64,000 bases of DNA from Psychroflexus sediminis (GTDB taxonomy: Bacteria > Bacteroidota > Bacteroidia > Flavobacteriales > Flavobacteriaceae): positions 1 through 64,000 of the forward strand of contig NZ_FNCW01000009.1 in assembly GCF_900099815.1 (NCBI RefSeq), given 5' to 3'. The notes under the pieces were generated by a model. It did no database searches, was not told where the DNA came from, and saw nothing but the letters and a program-made list of their open reading frames with translations. Shown piece after piece: positions 14,502-24,199 of the stretch (positions are counted from its first letter, which is position 1; each line of letters starts with the position of its first letter). Both the position numbers and the translations under genes were made by a program.

Positions 14502-14879
14502 TTATAGTTTATTTACTATTCTTTTTAAACCATTTTTCAACAGCACCTGATTGAAATTAATAAACAATCCTAATCTTAAATCTTTTAATTTTAGATAAGT
14601 AAGTAATTGAGCCGTGTGTATATCAGCTAAAGCATCAACACTTTTAATTTCTATGATAACTTTATTTTCTACTAATAGATCTATTCTATAGCCTGCATTA
14701 AGCTTAACTTCTTTATAGATAACTGGTAAAGCTAATTGATGTTGCACACTTAAACCCGCTTGTCTAAGTTCATAGGCTAAACAAGTTTCATAAGTGCTTT
14801 CTAAAAGACCAGGACCTAATTGCTTATGCACCTCCAGTGCTGCTCCTATTATTTTACTAGCAAAATCATTTTCGTGCAT
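14502..14879 (-). CDS. GxxExxY protein (PD-(D/E)XK-like)
   Basis: A 125-residue GxxExxY protein. The naming motif is GLLESTY, and the core IDLLVENKVIIEIKSVDAL carries the D...E-x-K arrangement of PD-(D/E)XK nucleases. The small size leaves room for only the catalytic fold. The family occurs in many mobile and chromosomal contexts with no proven function. Both flanks carry dispersed repeats, so this gene may have been inserted within a repeat-rich spacer. Confidence 0.88.
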   Translation of the reverse strand: MHENDFASKIIGAALEVHKQLGPGLLESTYETCLAYELRQAGLSVQHQLALPVIYKEVKLNAGYRIDLLVENKVIIEIKSVDALADIHTAQLLTYLKLKDLRLGLFINFNQVLLKNGLKRIVNKL

Positions 14880-17896: not shown

Positions 17897-18525
17897 GAGT
17901 GCACCTATTTTTAATTTTTAAAATTTGACCATAAAGAAATTCTTAAACTTTGTGACCTCCATGACTCCGTGGTGAATCCAACTCTGCGGATCATATTAAT
18001 GTTTCATATGAATTTTCACCGCCAAGACGCTAAGTTCCAAAGAGAAATCTCTACGCACTTTTCGACTCAGCGGTTTAATATTGGAGAGGCAATTCTTAGT
18101 AGATATTTAAAAATAGTTTTATTCACCGCGGTGGCGCTAAGAATGCTAAGACTAAAATTGATGTGAGTTTAAAATATAAGCTTTAAAACTCGTACTTGCA
18201 TAAAATGTCATAAGCTTAGACCGTAAAGGAAGTGAAAGCCTTGGGTTTCAACAAAGACATCGATAATCTCCAGTAGCAGCACTGTATGGTGTTTGGAGTG
18301 GAGTAGGTGGGCCATATTTAAAAGTAACATCTGAATTTGCTTGAAAAATTTATTTTCAAATGTTTCTTCTGTAATGTTAGTGGAACACTTTTTATGATAC
18401 GACGTAGGATGGAAACATTATGCTTGTAGAAAGGATGTTCTACTAAAATAAAAAGCGTAAAAAGTAATTTATCATTTTTCAAAATTCTATATTAATGATT
18501 TTAAATTTACACAATAATATTTTGC
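17897..18525. other. Repeat-rich spacer before the nuclease/STAND cassette
   Basis: These 629 bases carry no intact gene. Diverged repeat units lie at about 17935-17977 (TTTGTGACCTCCATGACTCC, GTGGTGAATCC), 18014-18085 (TCACCGCCAAGACGCTAAG, AAATCTCTACGC, GACTCAGCGGTTTAATA) and 18120-18150 (CACCGCGGTGGCGCTAAGAA). A methyltransferase relic lies at 18232-18306. From about 18310 the DNA turns AT-rich and leads into the cassette; I see no clear TAnnTTTG element directly before it (nearest ATATTTTG, 18516-18523). Confidence 0.6.
18232..18306 (+). pseudogene. Relic of the methyltransferase 3' end
   Basis: In frame it reads VKALGFNKDIDNLQ, stop, QHCMVFGVE, stop. The last codons of the intact gene at 17171-17896 read FKANGFELIENIDNLPWQHC and MVFGVE. 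The final 51 bases align without a gap and differ at about ten positions, including TGG to TAG. It is the remnant of a duplicated or paralogous methyltransferase whose remainder is gone. Confidence 0.8.
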
Positions 18526-20772
18526 ATGAATATTAATACAAGAAATAGGCACATTAGAAATGTATTATTTATAGAGGAAGATTATCCTTTTGATAAACTA
18601 TATGATTTAATAATGAATTGCAATGGCCTTTGGGGCGGAAGATATACACCCATAATCCCTATTGTTGGTGGTCAAATTGAATCAAAATATCTTGATATAG
18701 TTCAATACTACGACCCTGACTATGTATATCATACTGAAAAGGTTTCCATTGACTATATAAAAGAACTGGATATGTTTTCACCTATTGATTATTTTAATAT
18801 TGATTTAGCTATAAATAGATTTGAGGGACTTGGCTCCTTCTTTTTAATATCTAAAATACCTAAAGAACATTCAATTATTGATTTGGTATTAAGCAACGGT
18901 TTTAGGACTAGCTTGAAAAATTTTCTAGAGCTTAATTTGGGAATCACTAGAATGCATATGACGGAATCCAAATTAGCACAAGATTATGAAATAATAAAAG
19001 TTGATGACTCTAATTTTAATGATATACCTAAGCTTATACACACAAAAAAGGTGTTCAATAAGAGCTTACTCTCAACCCTAAATATTAATACCCAAGTTTT
19101 ACGTAACAAGGGCAGGAGCCCCTTTGAGCACTTTCAATTGGTCATTTCAGAAGATAAAGGTAAAAATGAAGACTTACTATATTATTGGAATCGTCAACTT
19201 TTTATTTTCAATCATTGGGTTAGGCCATCTCAATTTTTTATAACAGAGACGGAATTTCAAGAATTAATTAATTTACCTGTTATTGATGGGTTACTTTATA
19301 GTATTTCTAGAGATAACGAGATTGAAGTAATCTCAAAATCAATTGAGGACAAAAAATTAGAAGAATTAAGAAAACAACTTCAAAGTAAAACTCTAAGTCA
19401 TAGAATTTCAATATCCAAAAATGACTTCCCGTTTGATATTATGGACAATAATGGAATTGGTCCTTATCAAATTGGAGAACCGCTTGTTCAACAGCATTTT
19501 ACTTCTATTAAAGATGATGTTTTTCTCAACATACCAGATGTTTCTTTTAATCAAAAGAAACATCCTCCATCAAATACTTGGTTTCTGGATATTGATGTTT
19601 ATAATTCAGATAGCACTTCGTCAAATATGAGATTTTGTAAGACTGAAGACCCACAGTTTTTTCTACGTACCAAATCTAGGATTAATAAAAGGAATAGCAT
19701 CTCCATGGAAGTTAATTTTGCCACCACCACAAATAATTTTGTTTCTTTTAAAATTCCAGATTTTTTCTCAAGAGTAAAAATGATGGTACAAAATCCAATT
19801 ATTCAGACCCAAAGAGTTACCACGAAATATCAAAAAATAAAACTAAATGATGAAAGCTATCGATTGAAGTCATTAATCAAGCTATTCGGAAACAATTTTC
19901 ATGAAATAAGCGATTTCATTGAGGATAAGTTTTGGTTTGAAATTATTAAAGAACTTTCAATCAATAACAGAGTAGAAGGTGATTCAATAACTTATTTAGA
20001 AGTTCTAGAAAGGTGTAAAAGATTACTACCCTCCTTAGGAATAAAATTAGACCCAGATAAAATAAAATATTACAGTGAAGAGGATTTGAAGAAAGGATTA
20101 AGAAATACTTTGTTTGAGTATTGTGAAAGGAAGATTTTTTTTAAAGGTTTTACTGCTAAATGTCCAAATTGTTCCTCTAAGTACTGGTTTTCTCTATCCG
20201 AAATAACAGATACAATAAAGTGTAAAGGATGTGAAGAAAAGTATTCTTTTCCAATCGAACACCCATACTCTTATAAATTAAATAGTTTAATTCAAAACAA
20301 CTTTTTCCTAAATAATGGTACTAAAAAAGAATCTTTTGCAGGAAATTACACAGTATTAAAGACATTAAACTATTTAAAGAACATTTCTAGAGTTTCTTTT
20401 CAATATAATCCACAAATTGATATATATGATTCCTATTTAGCTAGTAAACCTATAACTGATATTGATATCATTTGTGAATCAGACGGTCATTTGATTATAG
20501 GAGAAGCTAAGCATGATAGCAAGCAATTACTTGAAGAAAAAGATAAAAAAAGTCTAAATAACCTCGTAAAAATTGCACAAGAGATTAAACCTTCGAAATT
20601 AATGCTGGCTTGCACAATAGACTCTCATTCCAAATTGGATAAATCAAAAAAATATTTGGAGCATCACATCAAAAAATGGGATTTTGAAGTTGAAGTCTTA
20701 ACTTATATTTCTTCTGAGCCAGACTATTTTAGTCTTAGTGGGAACGCAATAAAATATTTCGGATATAATTAA
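18526..20772 (+). CDS. Large protein with zinc ribbon and C-terminal PD-(D/E)XK-like nuclease motif
   Basis: A 748-residue soluble protein of no family I recognise. The first ~110 residues include LIMNCNGLWGGRYTPIIPIV, a glycine/proline-rich motif that looks conserved. A four-cysteine zinc ribbon lies at C546-x2-C549 and C566-x2-C569. At 645-663 DIDIICESDGHLIIGEAKH gives the D-x(n)-E-x-K pattern (D647, E660, K662) of PD-(D/E)XK nucleases. No signal peptide or membrane segment is visible. Its stop overlaps the next start (TAATG), so both proteins are probably made in fixed ratio. The gene is much more AT-rich than the genes to its left, a sign of transfer. I infer a defence nuclease or sensor; the target is unknown. 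Confidence 0.75.
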   Translation: MNINTRNRHIRNVLFIEEDYPFDKLYDLIMNCNGLWGGRYTPIIPIVGGQIESKYLDIVQYYDPDYVYHTEKVSIDYIKELDMFSPIDYFNIDLAINRFEGLGSFFLISKIPKEHSIIDLVLSNGFRTSLKNFLELNLGITRMHMTESKLAQDYEIIKVDDSNFNDIPKLIHTKKVFNKSLLSTLNINTQVLRNKGRSPFEHFQLVISEDKGKNEDLLYYWNRQLFIFNHWVRPSQFFITETEFQELINLPVIDGLLYSISRDNEIEVISKSIEDKKLEELRKQLQSKTLSHRISISKNDFPFDIMDNNGIGPYQIGEPLVQQHFTSIKDDVFLNIPDVSFNQKKHPPSNTWFLDIDVYNSDSTSSNMRFCKTEDPQFFLRTKSRINKRNSISMEVNFATTTNNFVSFKIPDFFSRVKMMVQNPIIQTQRVTTKYQKIKLNDESYRLKSLIKLFGNNFHEISDFIEDKFWFEIIKELSINNRVEGDSITYLEVLERCKRLLPSLGIKLDPDKIKYYSEEDLKKGLRNTLFEYCERKIFFKGFTAKCPNCSSKYWFSLSEITDTIKCKGCEEKYSFPIEHPYSYKLNSLIQNNFFLNNGTKKESFAGNYTVLKTLNYLKNISRVSFQYNPQIDIYDSYLASKPITDIDIICESDGHLIIGEAKHDSKQLLEEKDKKSLNNLVKIAQEIKPSKLMLACTIDSHSKLDKSKKYLEHHIKKWDFEVEVLTYISSEPDYFSLSGNAIKYFGYN

Positions 20773-23700
20773 TGAGACCATCAAGAAATGCATTTATCGG
20801 CTATACATACCAAGAACAAATAACTTTTTTGTTTTTGGCACTTATGGATGCCGAAAGAAAAATTGACCGTTTAGAGATTGAGGCAGATGTAAAAAATAAT
20901 TTTGACGATGTTAAAATTTCAATAGAGGACAATTTGATTTATAGTCAAATAAAAGATTTTGATGAAGTAGAACTTACCGATTTAAAATTTTCGGAAAAAC
21001 AAGTATCAATTAAAGGAAAAAAACATAGTCTAGCCAATAACTGTCTAAACGTTCTCTTTTTTAAGAAAATTGATATTAACTCAAATTGTAATTTTCTAGG
21101 AATACCAGCTCTAAAAACAAATAACGTTCTTATTATATCATTATCTAGAATAGAAGCTAACGAAGCGATTGAAGATTTATATAAGAATAATGAAATAAGA
21201 AAAATTACAATAAATAAATTCTTCTCTGATTGCCTTGACAATCGAATACTAGCAATTAAAAGAGAAGATCTGCCCATTATAAATATATTTGAAACTAAGT
21301 TGTTAGAGGAAACCATAGATGTTGGAAAACGACATTTAGAATTTTCAAATATTCTACATATTGAAGGAAAACCGGGAATAGGGAAAAGCCATTATGTCAA
21401 TAAACTTTCGACTATTCATAATAATAGTTTTGTCTATAGATTATGGATTTCAAATCAGGACAAAGACTACAAGAAACGGTTAGTATATTCAAACTTCATT
21501 TCTGATATCACTAAAAAATTGTTTGGAGATTATGTAAACAGAAATGAAACTGAAGTAATTGATAAACTACGAGAAAATGGACATGTATTCATAATTGATG
21601 GATTAGACCATGTAGAAAACTATAATAGCGAGGATTTAGAAAAATTTGTAGATTTTATAAACCAACTTATTCCTAATTGTAAAACTATTGTCCTATCAAG
21701 ACCTTTAAAACTGAAGACAATTTGGAAAAAACAAATACTTAATAATTGGAATGAAAATGAAACCAAAAAGGTACTCGATGAGCTTTATCATATTAACAAA
21801 TACTCTATCTGTAGTAGTATTTATAGTATAACCGATGGCTATCCAATATTAGTCAAGTTTTTTGGTGAGCACTATAAAGCCTTTAAGGAAATACCAAATC
21901 TTGAAAAATTAAAAGATGTTGAAGATTATTATAATCAAATTCTTGAAAGCGTAAATACTAAAACCGCATTAACTCTATTTCTGAGTTCTCAAAGTTTTTT
22001 TATGGAATCAGAATTAAAACTATTCCTTAAAGATGAACTTTTCGACAATTTGCAAGAATTTATTACTGCCTATCCTTACTTGTTTGAAAAAAGACTTAAC
22101 AGAATTTCATTATTTCATGATAGTCTGAATAAGTATTTGAGAGAACAAGGCATAAATTATTTAAAAAGAAAAGATACTGTAGGTGAAATAGTGTCGTCCT
22201 CAATCCTAAAGAGGGAAAAGAGATTTATGTCCAGATTTGCTCATTTTGAGCTTAAAACTGAGATGAAATTGAAAATCATAAAACAATTCTCATCAATTGA
22301 GGTTTTTAAAGACATCATGAAGGATTGTATTGATTTTGAAGCGATAAGAGCATTCTATAATCAACTAAGAGAAGCATTAATGGAAATTTCTTGTGATGAC
22401 TTGGAAATAACTCATTACTACGATTTATCTCTAATCATCAATATTGTAAATAGAGACCACATCTCTACATTAAATCAGTTTTTATATACTTATACTAAAT
22501 GTCTTTTCTTCAATGGTTATACAGCAGAGGATGTAACTAGTTCTGAATATTTGTTCGGAATGCTAACTTATGTTATTGGGCAAGATTCTATTCCTCTCCA
22601 TGATATAACAAGTGATTCGTTTTACAGCACAACTCGTTTTTTAGAAGAATTAGAGAATGATGTTTTAAACGAAGAGCAATTCTTTATAAGGTATAATGAT
22701 TTACTTAATTTAATTAAACCTATTGACACCTACTTAAAAGATGATTTTCATTGGAGAGAATATTTAACCGAAATCCTTACCAATTTATATATTCATAAAA
22801 CCGAGTACGAGTCATTACTCGAGTTACAAAACTGCGTAGATATTTTCATAGATATTGATGAAGGCCGAGGAATTGCGGAGTTAAAAAAAATATTGGATAG
22901 ACAAAGTTCTGAAAGAAGATTTCCCCATTGGGTTTTAAATGATGTTAGGAAGAATCTTCTAGCATTGGGAAAACTTCCTGATAATAATCCATATTTGAAT
23001 CTTAGCCTAAAGGACTATATAAACCAATATAGTTCAATTGGGTCTTTTGATATGTGGACTAATATTCTTAGTTATATACGTTTATCAGTTGAGCAGGAGA
23101 GAAGAATTGATATCGGAAGTATTGGATTTTTCTGGTCCATGTACTACCGAAGAAAGGACTACTCGGTTATCAATATATATGTTGCGCTAAAAGTTTTTGA
23201 GAAAAAGGAACTTATTGATGAGGAGACTGGAATTAAAACAATTGTTTTAGCCCAAGAAATGTCGGAGAAGGGAATTAGGAATTTATTAGCTGACTACATT
23301 AGTATTCATCCCCCTTCAATCATAAAGAAAGTTATAAAACTATATGATTTAGATGAATTGAATATTTCATGGTTTGATTTACCTCCAAATCATATTAGTG
23401 CATTTCCGGAAAAAGTATTTAATTATGCTGTGAATACATTGTGGAGGCAAAATAGATTTAACAATGAGATTGATTTCAATGGTATTTCGAACGTTTTTTA
23501 TTCCTCAAAATGGACAGATTTATTAAAAAATTTAAATTTTTTCAGATTTAAAATTCGTATATCGGATAATGCAAAAGAATTGGAAACACTTGAAAAAAGT
23601 GGAATAACAGTTTTGAAACAGAAAGGAGAACATGAAAAGACAAATCCGAGTGGCTATAGATACAAACAAGGAATTTTAGACTCAAGGGATAAAAAATTTA

Positions 23701-23999
23701 TAATCGAAAAAGGATTAAGTTCTACGGAGGTTTCCGGATATCTAAATGGTAATTATGCTGCTCTTGAAGATTTGAAAATTTATCAAATCTACCCTAAAGA
23801 AGATATTGCTCAAAATTTAAAAGAAATTATATACAATGCGGTCTTGGGAAAAATAAATAGTATTAATAGTTATGGGAGTTTGTATTATCTGGTAGGTAAC
23901 TTACCTAAACTAATAAATGATTACGGTAGTGAGGAGGATATTCATGAGTTACACAAAAGCTTTGAAGGTTTCTTAGAGCTATCTTTGCTTAAAAAATGA
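20772..23999 (+). CDS. Cap4/DUF4297-like nuclease fused to a STAND NTPase
   Basis: A 1075-residue protein. Residues 1-100 resemble the DUF4297/Cap4 dsDNA endonuclease domain: GYTYQEQITFLFLAL, then EIEADVKNNFDDVKI with Asp45/46, and YSQIK giving the Q-x-K pair (59-61). A STAND NTPase follows, with Walker A EGKPGIGKSH (198-207), Walker B VFIIDGLDHV (272-281) and a sensor strand TIVLSRP. The remaining ~650 residues are helical and lack obvious TPR regularity. This layout is that of Avs-like immune sensors, where the C-terminus recognises a phage protein and the NTPase oligomerises to activate the nuclease. It is shorter than described Avs proteins and is paired with an unfamiliar partner. Function is inferred. 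Confidence 0.8.
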   Translation: MRPSRNAFIGYTYQEQITFLFLALMDAERKIDRLEIEADVKNNFDDVKISIEDNLIYSQIKDFDEVELTDLKFSEKQVSIKGKKHSLANNCLNVLFFKKIDINSNCNFLGIPALKTNNVLIISLSRIEANEAIEDLYKNNEIRKITINKFFSDCLDNRILAIKREDLPIINIFETKLLEETIDVGKRHLEFSNILHIEGKPGIGKSHYVNKLSTIHNNSFVYRLWISNQDKDYKKRLVYSNFISDITKKLFGDYVNRNETEVIDKLRENGHVFIIDGLDHVENYNSEDLEKFVDFINQLIPNCKTIVLSRPLKLKTIWKKQILNNWNENETKKVLDELYHINKYSICSSIYSITDGYPILVKFFGEHYKAFKEIPNLEKLKDVEDYYNQILESVNTKTALTLFLSSQSFFMESELKLFLKDELFDNLQEFITAYPYLFEKRLNRISLFHDSLNKYLREQGINYLKRKDTVGEIVSSSILKREKRFMSRFAHFELKTEMKLKIIKQFSSIEVFKDIMKDCIDFEAIRAFYNQLREALMEISCDDLEITHYYDLSLIINIVNRDHISTLNQFLYTYTKCLFFNGYTAEDVTSSEYLFGMLTYVIGQDSIPLHDITSDSFYSTTRFLEELENDVLNEEQFFIRYNDLLNLIKPIDTYLKDDFHWREYLTEILTNLYIHKTEYESLLELQNCVDIFIDIDEGRGIAELKKILDRQSSERRFPHWVLNDVRKNLLALGKLPDNNPYLNLSLKDYINQYSSIGSFDMWTNILSYIRLSVEQERRIDIGSIGFFWSMYYRRKDYSVINIYVALKVFEKKELIDEETGIKTIVLAQEMSEKGIRNLLADYISIHPPSIIKKVIKLYDLDELNISWFDLPPNHISAFPEKVFNYAVNTLWRQNRFNNEIDFNGISNVFYSSKWTDLLKNLNFFRFKIRISDNAKELETLEKSGITVLKQKGEHEKTNPSGYRYKQGILDSRDKKFIIEKGLSSTEVSGYLNGNYAALEDLKIYQIYPKEDIAQNLKEIIYNAVLGKINSINSYGSLYYLVGNLPKLINDYGSEEDIHELHKSFEGFLELSLLKK

Positions 24000-24199
24000 G
24001 TTAAAATGGCTAGAGAATTATGGAATAAAATAATTCAACTGATTATAAAACAATTACATGCTATTATCTGCATCTATGTAAAATAGGCCTTTAAAAAGTT
24101 CTATTCGCTATATGGCGTAAATCATACTTTTGTCTTATAATTTATATTATGTAAAATAGAAATAAATTAAACTTAAGTGATATGGTGAATTATTTCTAT

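Follow-up and report, generated by a model that had tools for sequence, protein, structure and literature searches.

An Avs-like gene and a Can2-like nuclease gene side by side in an insert of Psychroflexus sediminis, a predicted defence cargo of two separable genes

Avs proteins, of which Avs3 and Avs4 have been solved, carry an N-terminal nuclease, a central STAND NTPase and a long helical C-terminus. Nucleases of the Cap4/LmuA/DUF4297/HamA group have other partners: SAVED is fused to Cap4, an SMC protein goes with LmuA, and HerA or a helicase accompanies the others. The CARF-nucleases with DUF1887, namely Can2, Card1 and VC1899, are the third group that matters here; in its passages on these enzymes, one report gives the residue pair E302/K304 for TsuCan2 and describes VC1899 itself as having no type III CRISPR link (PMC7969007). 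In the present study, we analysed two adjacent genes, named gene 1 and gene 2, of Psychroflexus sediminis, located in a stretch of 64,000 nucleotides (assembly GCF_900099815.1, contig NZ_FNCW01000009.1, positions 1 to 64,000), which is called the window throughout. Gene 2 encodes an Avs-like protein and gene 1 a protein ending in a Can2-like nuclease. They are two separable genes, found side by side at least twice, and belong to a real and apparently intact insert with a very probable defence role.

18526..20772, plus strand: gene 1, a Can2-like nuclease protein of a family without a name (open reading frame (ORF), relatives, AlphaFold model with pLDDT 85.7 and pTM 0.84)
20772..23999, plus strand: gene 2, an Avs-like nuclease-STAND-helical protein (ORF, full-length relatives)
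20771..20774, plus strand: junction TAATG, in which the final base of the gene 1 TAA is the first base of the gene 2 ATG (1-nt overlap)
17919..24064, no strand: the insert; relative G775 lacks it and has 128 bp at the syntenic position
18197..18322, plus strand: at the left edge of the insert, a decayed and incomplete duplicate (about 73% identity) of the flanking methyltransferase gene's 3' end

Both genes are intact in the ORF list of the window and code for proteins of 748 (gene 1) and 1075 (gene 2) amino acids (aa). Their GC content is 27-31% versus 36% for the whole window, and at the three codon positions gene 1 has 36/28/24% and gene 2 has 38/26/24%. The ORFs, the base composition and the junction bear out the initial annotation of this DNA, which had pointed to two AT-rich genes overlapping as TAATG. 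We also agree that the insert holds no other genes, as the sole other ORF of at least 60 aa not inside the two genes is a GTG-initiated one of 65 aa (17969-18166), which was judged to be no gene. Co-transcription of gene 1 and gene 2 is probable. A Bacteroidota-type promoter pattern was looked for upstream of gene 1 and none was found there.

In a blastn comparison of window positions 10000-34000 with the corresponding locus of G775 (L050), the two were collinear on the left as far as 17918 and on the right from 24065 onward; between these points the relative has 128 bp and the window about 6.1 kb. Because collinearity holds on both sides, the approximately 6.1 kb with both genes is regarded as an insert. 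The syntenic site, lying between a methyltransferase and a lipoprotein gene, was read in six relatives, while ten others lack one or both of the flanking genes in the sequence inspected. Four of the six have a short spacer, of 271 (L052), 111 (L053), 114 (L054) and 621 bp (L050, where the methyltransferase ORF is called short), and in L051 no recognised methyltransferase is present at the site. Relative G776 (L055 4795-6826) bears a different cargo of three genes at this site, between the methyltransferase and lipoprotein genes, which encode a lipoprotein-like protein of 232 aa, a protein of 96 aa and one of 342 aa with GGGIRG and GTSTGG motifs, the latter presumably patatin-like, as labelled by eye from these motifs. 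The site may be a small insertion hotspot. The spacer around the genes had been called repeat-laden, which was overstated: a 37-bp repeat and the decayed methyltransferase-end copy do lie at the left edge, and a 16-base spacer piece has just one other genome site at up to 2 mismatches. The decayed copy looks as if the insert came by recombination with a relative carrying cargo there.

The association of the two genes was assessed in sets of 397, 395 and 388 genomes for gene 2, and of 395 and 388 for gene 1; the genome draws overlap between searches, and locus genes were predicted simply as the longest ORFs. The two genes lie next to each other in 2 of 7 full-length gene 2 loci and in 2 of 37 gene 1 loci; one of these pairs is that of the window itself, which was the basis of choosing the pair. 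The 37 comprise the window, L067, 31 loci of the genome collection, L003, L004, L075 and L076, and thus include two of three plasmid gene 1 records (L007 and L074 were left out as duplicates of L018 and L011), and a gene 2 copy of G023, split over two contig ends, stands outside the 7. The second pair, in G900 (L067), a genome assigned by inference to Flavobacterium, has the opposite order, with the gene 2 relative followed after 38 bp by the gene 1 relative. Gene 2 was not found at the 31 genome-collection gene 1 loci, the two plasmid loci and the remnant loci of G952 and G975; gene 1, in turn, was not found near gene 2 in the other five full-length loci, nor in the whole genomes of three of them (G174, G962 and G1124). 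Several loci end at contig edges, where a partner lying farther out would go unnoticed. Among the 388 genomes, of a genus inferred to be Flavobacterium, gene 1 occurs in 4 (two copies degenerate), gene 2 in 4 and both in 1; the chance of at least one shared genome is P 0.041, or 0.021 with only the two intact gene 1 copies, adjacency not being counted.

Trees rejected the paired copies as sisters, both for gene 1 (p-AU, i.e. approximately unbiased test, 0.0037; 16 rows, with several open forks and long branches) and for gene 2 (p-AU 1.6e-8; 7 rows). Since the paired copies are not sisters, two independent origins of the pairing are probable, the alternative being an ancient pair that has repeatedly been disrupted and rearranged. 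An obligate or conserved two-gene system is rejected, as the genes mostly occur singly across the surveyed loci. Accordingly, of the two-gene cassette proposed initially, the adjacency stands in the window and in G900, while its fixed character does not, given the low counts, the opposite order and the separate ancestry of the copies. Absence of co-occurrence together with housekeeping contexts had been named as the outcome that would speak against the proposal: co-occurrence is indeed mostly lacking, and the contexts seen are defence or mobile ones.

The protein of gene 1 is divided as follows.

18526..19425, plus strand: residues 1-300, two Rossmann-like alpha/beta lobes, candidate sensor region (secondary structure of the model, conservation)
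19849..20145, plus strand: residues 442-540, helical, winged-helix-like part (model; Fur, PerR and PadR matches over 463-606, Z 4-5)
20161..20232, plus strand: zinc ribbon, C546-x2-C549 and C566-x2-C569 (the four Cys invariant in 23 rows)
20338..20721, plus strand: residues 605-732, PD-(D/E)XK nuclease domain with D647 and E660-x-K662 (structure match, conservation)

In the AlphaFold model the two lobes (approximately residues 1-300) are followed by a strand-rich link, the winged-helix-like part, the zinc ribbon and the nuclease. The lobes look Rossmann-like by the order of strands and helices in the model, and they contain the conserved motifs WGG(R)..PII.P, DPD and WN. Across the 23 aligned rows, not all of them complete, D647 and E660 never vary, and at least 90% have K662. 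According to the passages on TsuCan2 in PMC7969007, E660-x-K662 has the form of its E302/K304 pair. The C-terminal half (374-732) gave its best VIA structure matches with the Can2/Card1/VC1899 group (Z 7.7-9.0), i.e. Can2 (9.0 and 8.7), VC1899 (8.7), Cdn1 (8.3) and Card1 (7.9), bearing in mind that the tool itself warns of possible background matches at Z near 8. All first 12 rows belong to these four proteins (Z 7.0-9.0). Residues 416-732 matched Can2 at Z 9.0, the superposition with structure 8bao covering 153 residues at a root-mean-square deviation (rmsd) of 3.7, and the nuclease end alone matched 2vld and EndoMS (Z 6.0-6.4). Further matches of the nuclease half were EcoT38I (Z 6.5), EndoMS (6.2) and BstEII (5.6). 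Gene 1 thus has a PD-(D/E)XK nuclease of the Can2 type (Foldseek E 2.9e-3 only), and differs from the solved proteins of 341-437 aa in its length of 748 aa, its front Rossmann-like lobes and its conserved zinc ribbon. The zinc ribbon and PD-(D/E)XK end foreseen by the initial annotation are supported by conservation and fold matches, as are its named residues, E660/K662 and the zinc-ribbon Cys in gene 1 and K205/D276 in gene 2, all conserved in relatives. That description was incomplete for gene 1, since two N-terminal lobes precede and the rest resembles the self-contained sensor-nucleases Can2 and Card1.

Fold searches with the whole gene 1 model were dominated by residues 415-732, and no match among viral structures was obtained at E 0.001. 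In the PDB sequence search gene 1 alone gave none, and its profile gave only zinc-ribbon matches. Pfam, NCBIfam and PADLOC returned no accepted match for the window member; weak matches to Pfam FAM180 and IL4 and to an NCBIfam capsid family were taken as chance. Its relatives have only weak Pfam and PADLOC matches, among them CARF4 (CARF nuclease) in 2 of 23 and Csx1 in 1 of 23, and the Csx1-type match that was located (L029, E 0.015) falls in the nuclease end.

Relatives of gene 1 were collected from 31 loci in the genome collection, three plasmid records and further genomes, whereas a viral-collection scan gave nothing useful. By record titles they come from Bacteroidetes, Acidobacteria, Armatimonadetes, WOR-3, Aminicenantes, Marinimicrobia, Alphaproteobacteria, the myxobacterium Archangium, Poribacteria, Verrucomicrobiia, Phycisphaerae and Adlerbacteria, and the plasmid records belong to Burkholderia and Piscirickettsia. 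Matches to the remotest members are weak (E of at least 1e-4, relative to the candidates only), yet these members share the motifs once aligned. In 7 of the 31 loci (L012, L017, L022, L023, L024, L030 and L036) gene 1 is broken into at least two ORFs, in isolates and metagenome-assembled genomes alike, and remnants are present in G952 (L075) and G975 (L076). Such copies reflect either frequent inactivation or sequencing errors.

Gene 2 consists of three parts.

20796..21293, plus strand: residues 9-174, nuclease domain of the Cap4/LmuA/DUF4297 type (VIA matches; E37, D45, D46, Q59 and K61 conserved in 7 of 7)
21294..21749, plus strand: residues 175-326, STAND NTPase core with Walker A K205 and Walker B D276 (fold, conservation)
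22149..23996, plus strand: residues 460-1075, helical C-terminus, candidate sensor (secondary structure, low-confidence model)

From its AlphaFold model only the N-terminal and STAND parts were used, most of the first 165 residues having pLDDT of about 55-80. Residues 9-174 matched LmuA (Z 10.9), Cap4 (10.1), a HerA-DUF structure (9.5) and a Hachiman chain (9.3) in VIA. They share this fold with the Cap4/LmuA/DUF4297/HamA group (Z 9.3-10.9) and differ from it in being fused to a STAND NTPase. Residues 175-326 matched STAND and ORC-type ATPases, and both K205 and D276 are kept in 7 of 7 proteins, the Walker B block being IIDGLDHVENYN. Conservation is lowest in block 601-720 (0.50), compared with 0.70 in the STAND core. 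These structure matches uphold the earlier assignment of a Cap4/DUF4297-like nuclease, a STAND NTPase and a helical C-terminus.

Like Avs proteins, gene 2 has an N-terminal nuclease fold (predicted effector), a central STAND NTPase with Walker A and B, and a long helical C-terminus. Unlike the solved chains of 1541 (Avs4) and 2028 aa (Avs3) it has only 1075 aa, and PADLOC gave it no match to an Avs profile or another named type, with 0 families at E up to 10. The best Foldseek match is Avs4, a weak one (E 1.9e-4, TM 0.11); Avs3 aligns over model residues 9-858, and whole-chain superpositions are loose (rmsd 23-29). Pfam yielded AAA and NACHT matches, all sub-threshold, and heat-shock matches in the PDB sequence search were weak and were taken as chance. 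Full-length relatives were found in four genomes of the genus inferred to be Flavobacterium (43-46% identity) and on two viral-collection contigs (43% and 30% identity), a second viral-collection scan giving the same two loci again. Outside that genus three plasmid records match weakly, in the STAND part only; the profile of seven gene 2 proteins confirms 2 of the 3, one being a Moraxella protein (STAND part) which PADLOC labels Avs1b (E 5.5e-10). A genome-collection scan with gene 2 alone and plasmid searches with two gene 2 relatives gave nothing useful.

Named systems were dropped as candidates, for neither window protein had an accepted match in Pfam, PADLOC or NCBIfam, in line with the earlier proposal of a candidate new defence system. 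Literature searches in a single library returned no paper naming either family and none with 'PDC-M65'. Cas10 (PF22335) was not found in the window's genome, which is 99.95% complete, although among 14 control genomes 5 were positive in this search; likewise the SMODS cyclase (PF18144), positive in 3 of 14 control genomes, was not found there, in a search covering this cyclase family and not the others. CBASS with a SMODS cyclase and type III signalling were therefore dropped for this strain, and such enzymes are unlikely to supply a cyclic nucleotide as the trigger here. A phage origin was dropped too: neither window protein gave a tblastn match at E 0.01 in 50,697 phage records, and a gene 2 relative gave none either.

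Defence genes lie near relatives of both genes, in agreement with the defence setting suggested at first. PADLOC matched 6 of 10 neighbours scanned for gene 2 relatives and 3 of 10 for gene 1, the latter including HamA/HamB in L015 and PDC-S54 in L019, which gene 1 precedes at both loci. In a tally of 99 of the 110 gene 1 neighbours in L008-L022 (209 neighbours listed in all), based on the best 25 of 215 families, type I specificity and AbiH profiles had 2 members each among the matches listed. In G900, the pair has GajA and GajB (Gabija) on its upstream side, separated from it by a single unannotated gene of 761 aa (L067 10505-12790, minus strand; no PADLOC match at E 0.001). On viral-collection contig L077 (1222-9498), PDC-M65A, PDC-M65B, the gene 2 relative and the SIR2-like PDC-S25 are co-directional, with gaps of 4, 10 and 88 bp, and PDC-M65 may have in gene 2 a partner not yet on record; the PDC-M65 and PDC-S25 profiles themselves match neither gene 1 nor gene 2. 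In L078 gene 2 has no defence neighbour of such kind. In G174 gene 2 precedes two genes without annotation, a HEPN/Toprim gene and an N6 DNA methylase gene. The two unannotated ones, right after the gene 2 relative (L059 13236-15945), code for 565 and 339 aa, and the 565-aa gene shows distant similarity (22%) to one of 589 aa that lies divergently to gene 1 in L015. Gene 2 of G1124 follows a 469-aa gene without annotation, and that of G962 lies a few kb from an integrase-like gene. The integrase-like proteins near gene 2 in G962 and near the gene 1 remnant in G952 are 63% identical; such labels, which we assigned by eye save where a record's annotation is named, are to be taken as presumptive. 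A large Upx-like protein is common to G962, G900 and, distantly, the L015 gene 1 locus. As both genes use the same island types, their accidental stacking is easier. Outside the two pairs, each gene is solitary or has Hachiman, restriction, PDC-M65 or integrase-like genes close by.

The explanation to which we give slightly better than even chances is a small defence cargo, that is two separable genes stacked in shared islands and possibly cooperating, with functions predicted from fold and context. Here gene 2 would act like Avs or a bacterial nucleotide-binding leucine-rich repeat (NLR) protein: the helical C-terminus would recognise a phage component (protein), the STAND NTPase would then bind ATP and oligomerise, and the N-terminal Cap4-type nuclease would degrade DNA, leading to abortive infection. 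Gene 1 would be a self-contained gated nuclease, whose Rossmann-like lobes would sense a ligand or partner and then release the winged-helix, zinc-ribbon and Can2-like nuclease parts to cut nucleic acid. Together, both genes would give layered defence in this strain, with direct cooperation possible and not required. The different cargo of G776 indicates that the site is variable and was counted for this explanation. Several points weigh against it. The fold of gene 1 gave no Foldseek match in PDB at E 0.001, the best being Can2 (E 2.9e-3, TM 0.18) and VC1899 (E 3.2e-3), and the sensor role of its N-terminal lobes is a guess from the model. The gene 2 model is poor overall (mean pLDDT 45), its C-terminus being mostly below 50. 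The neighbours scanned lacked a PADLOC match in 4 of 10 cases for gene 2 and 7 of 10 for gene 1, and these counts have no control set of neighbours, so that enrichment is not proven by them. Phage defence is for both genes a predicted role. Finally, the pair was seen twice in separate lineages, a recurrence which mere stacking would rarely give, and the TAATG overlap suggests coupling.

The last two points lead to one two-component defence system, close to the roles that the initial annotation had assigned to the two genes, in which the activated sensor gene 2 would also switch on gene 1 as a second effector nuclease, or use it as a regulator, with facultative pairing as for accessory nucleases elsewhere. 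We regard it as possible, albeit doubtful. The two probably independent adjacencies with opposite order, the close spacing (1-nt overlap in the window, 38-bp gap in G900) and the nuclease motifs, both intact in the window, are consistent with it, and in its passages on the subject PMC12799240 provides a precedent, nuclease-protease pairs repeatedly acquired by unrelated defence systems. Within the stretch examined, however, the partner is missing in 5 of 7 gene 2 and 35 of 37 gene 1 loci, and common island types with integrase-like genes raise the chance of accidental adjacency. Gene 1 as a stand-alone modification- or mismatch-dependent restriction enzyme, its winged helix and zinc ribbon reading DNA and its PD-(D/E)XK domain cutting it, would agree with the EcoT38I, EndoMS and BstEII matches (Z 6.5, 6.2 and 5.6), the Fur and PerR matches of the winged-helix part, the many gene 1 loci without an obvious partner and the lack of a SMODS or Cas10 match in the window's genome. 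We hold it to be quite unlikely, as the first 12 rows consist entirely of Can2, VC1899, Cdn1 and Card1 matches (Z 7.0-9.0) and DNA reading leaves unexplained some 300 N-terminal residues, forming two Rossmann-like lobes with conserved motifs. Least probable is cargo serving housekeeping or mobile-element maintenance with no phage-related role; neither window protein could be matched to a named defence system, which would suit it, but the patchy distribution (each gene in 4 of 388 genomes), the gene 1 copies that are interrupted or reduced to remnants and the presence nearby of Gabija, Hachiman, PDC-M65 and PDC-S25, among others, argue against it.

Farther from the insert, a 125-aa ORF at window positions 14502-14879 resembles what we take to be the GxxExxY family.

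Gene 2 adds a compact Avs-like type outside the coverage of PADLOC profiles. The gene 1 family is the larger gain, as by record titles it extends over roughly a dozen bacterial groups, the remotest of them linked by weak matches, with some members in defence islands. It is a speculative idea, and in our opinion an improbable one, that gene 1 is the founder of a family of signal-gated nucleases spanning several phyla, with a new bilobed sensor of Rossmann-like form driving a Can2-type nuclease outside CRISPR and CBASS; beside an Avs-like protein, gene 1 would serve as an interchangeable second effector, one infection signal firing two different nucleases. What the N-terminal lobes of gene 1 sense is a directly testable question, and the repeated juxtaposition with an Avs-like gene offers a natural test of whether such modules are recombined for cooperation or only share transport.

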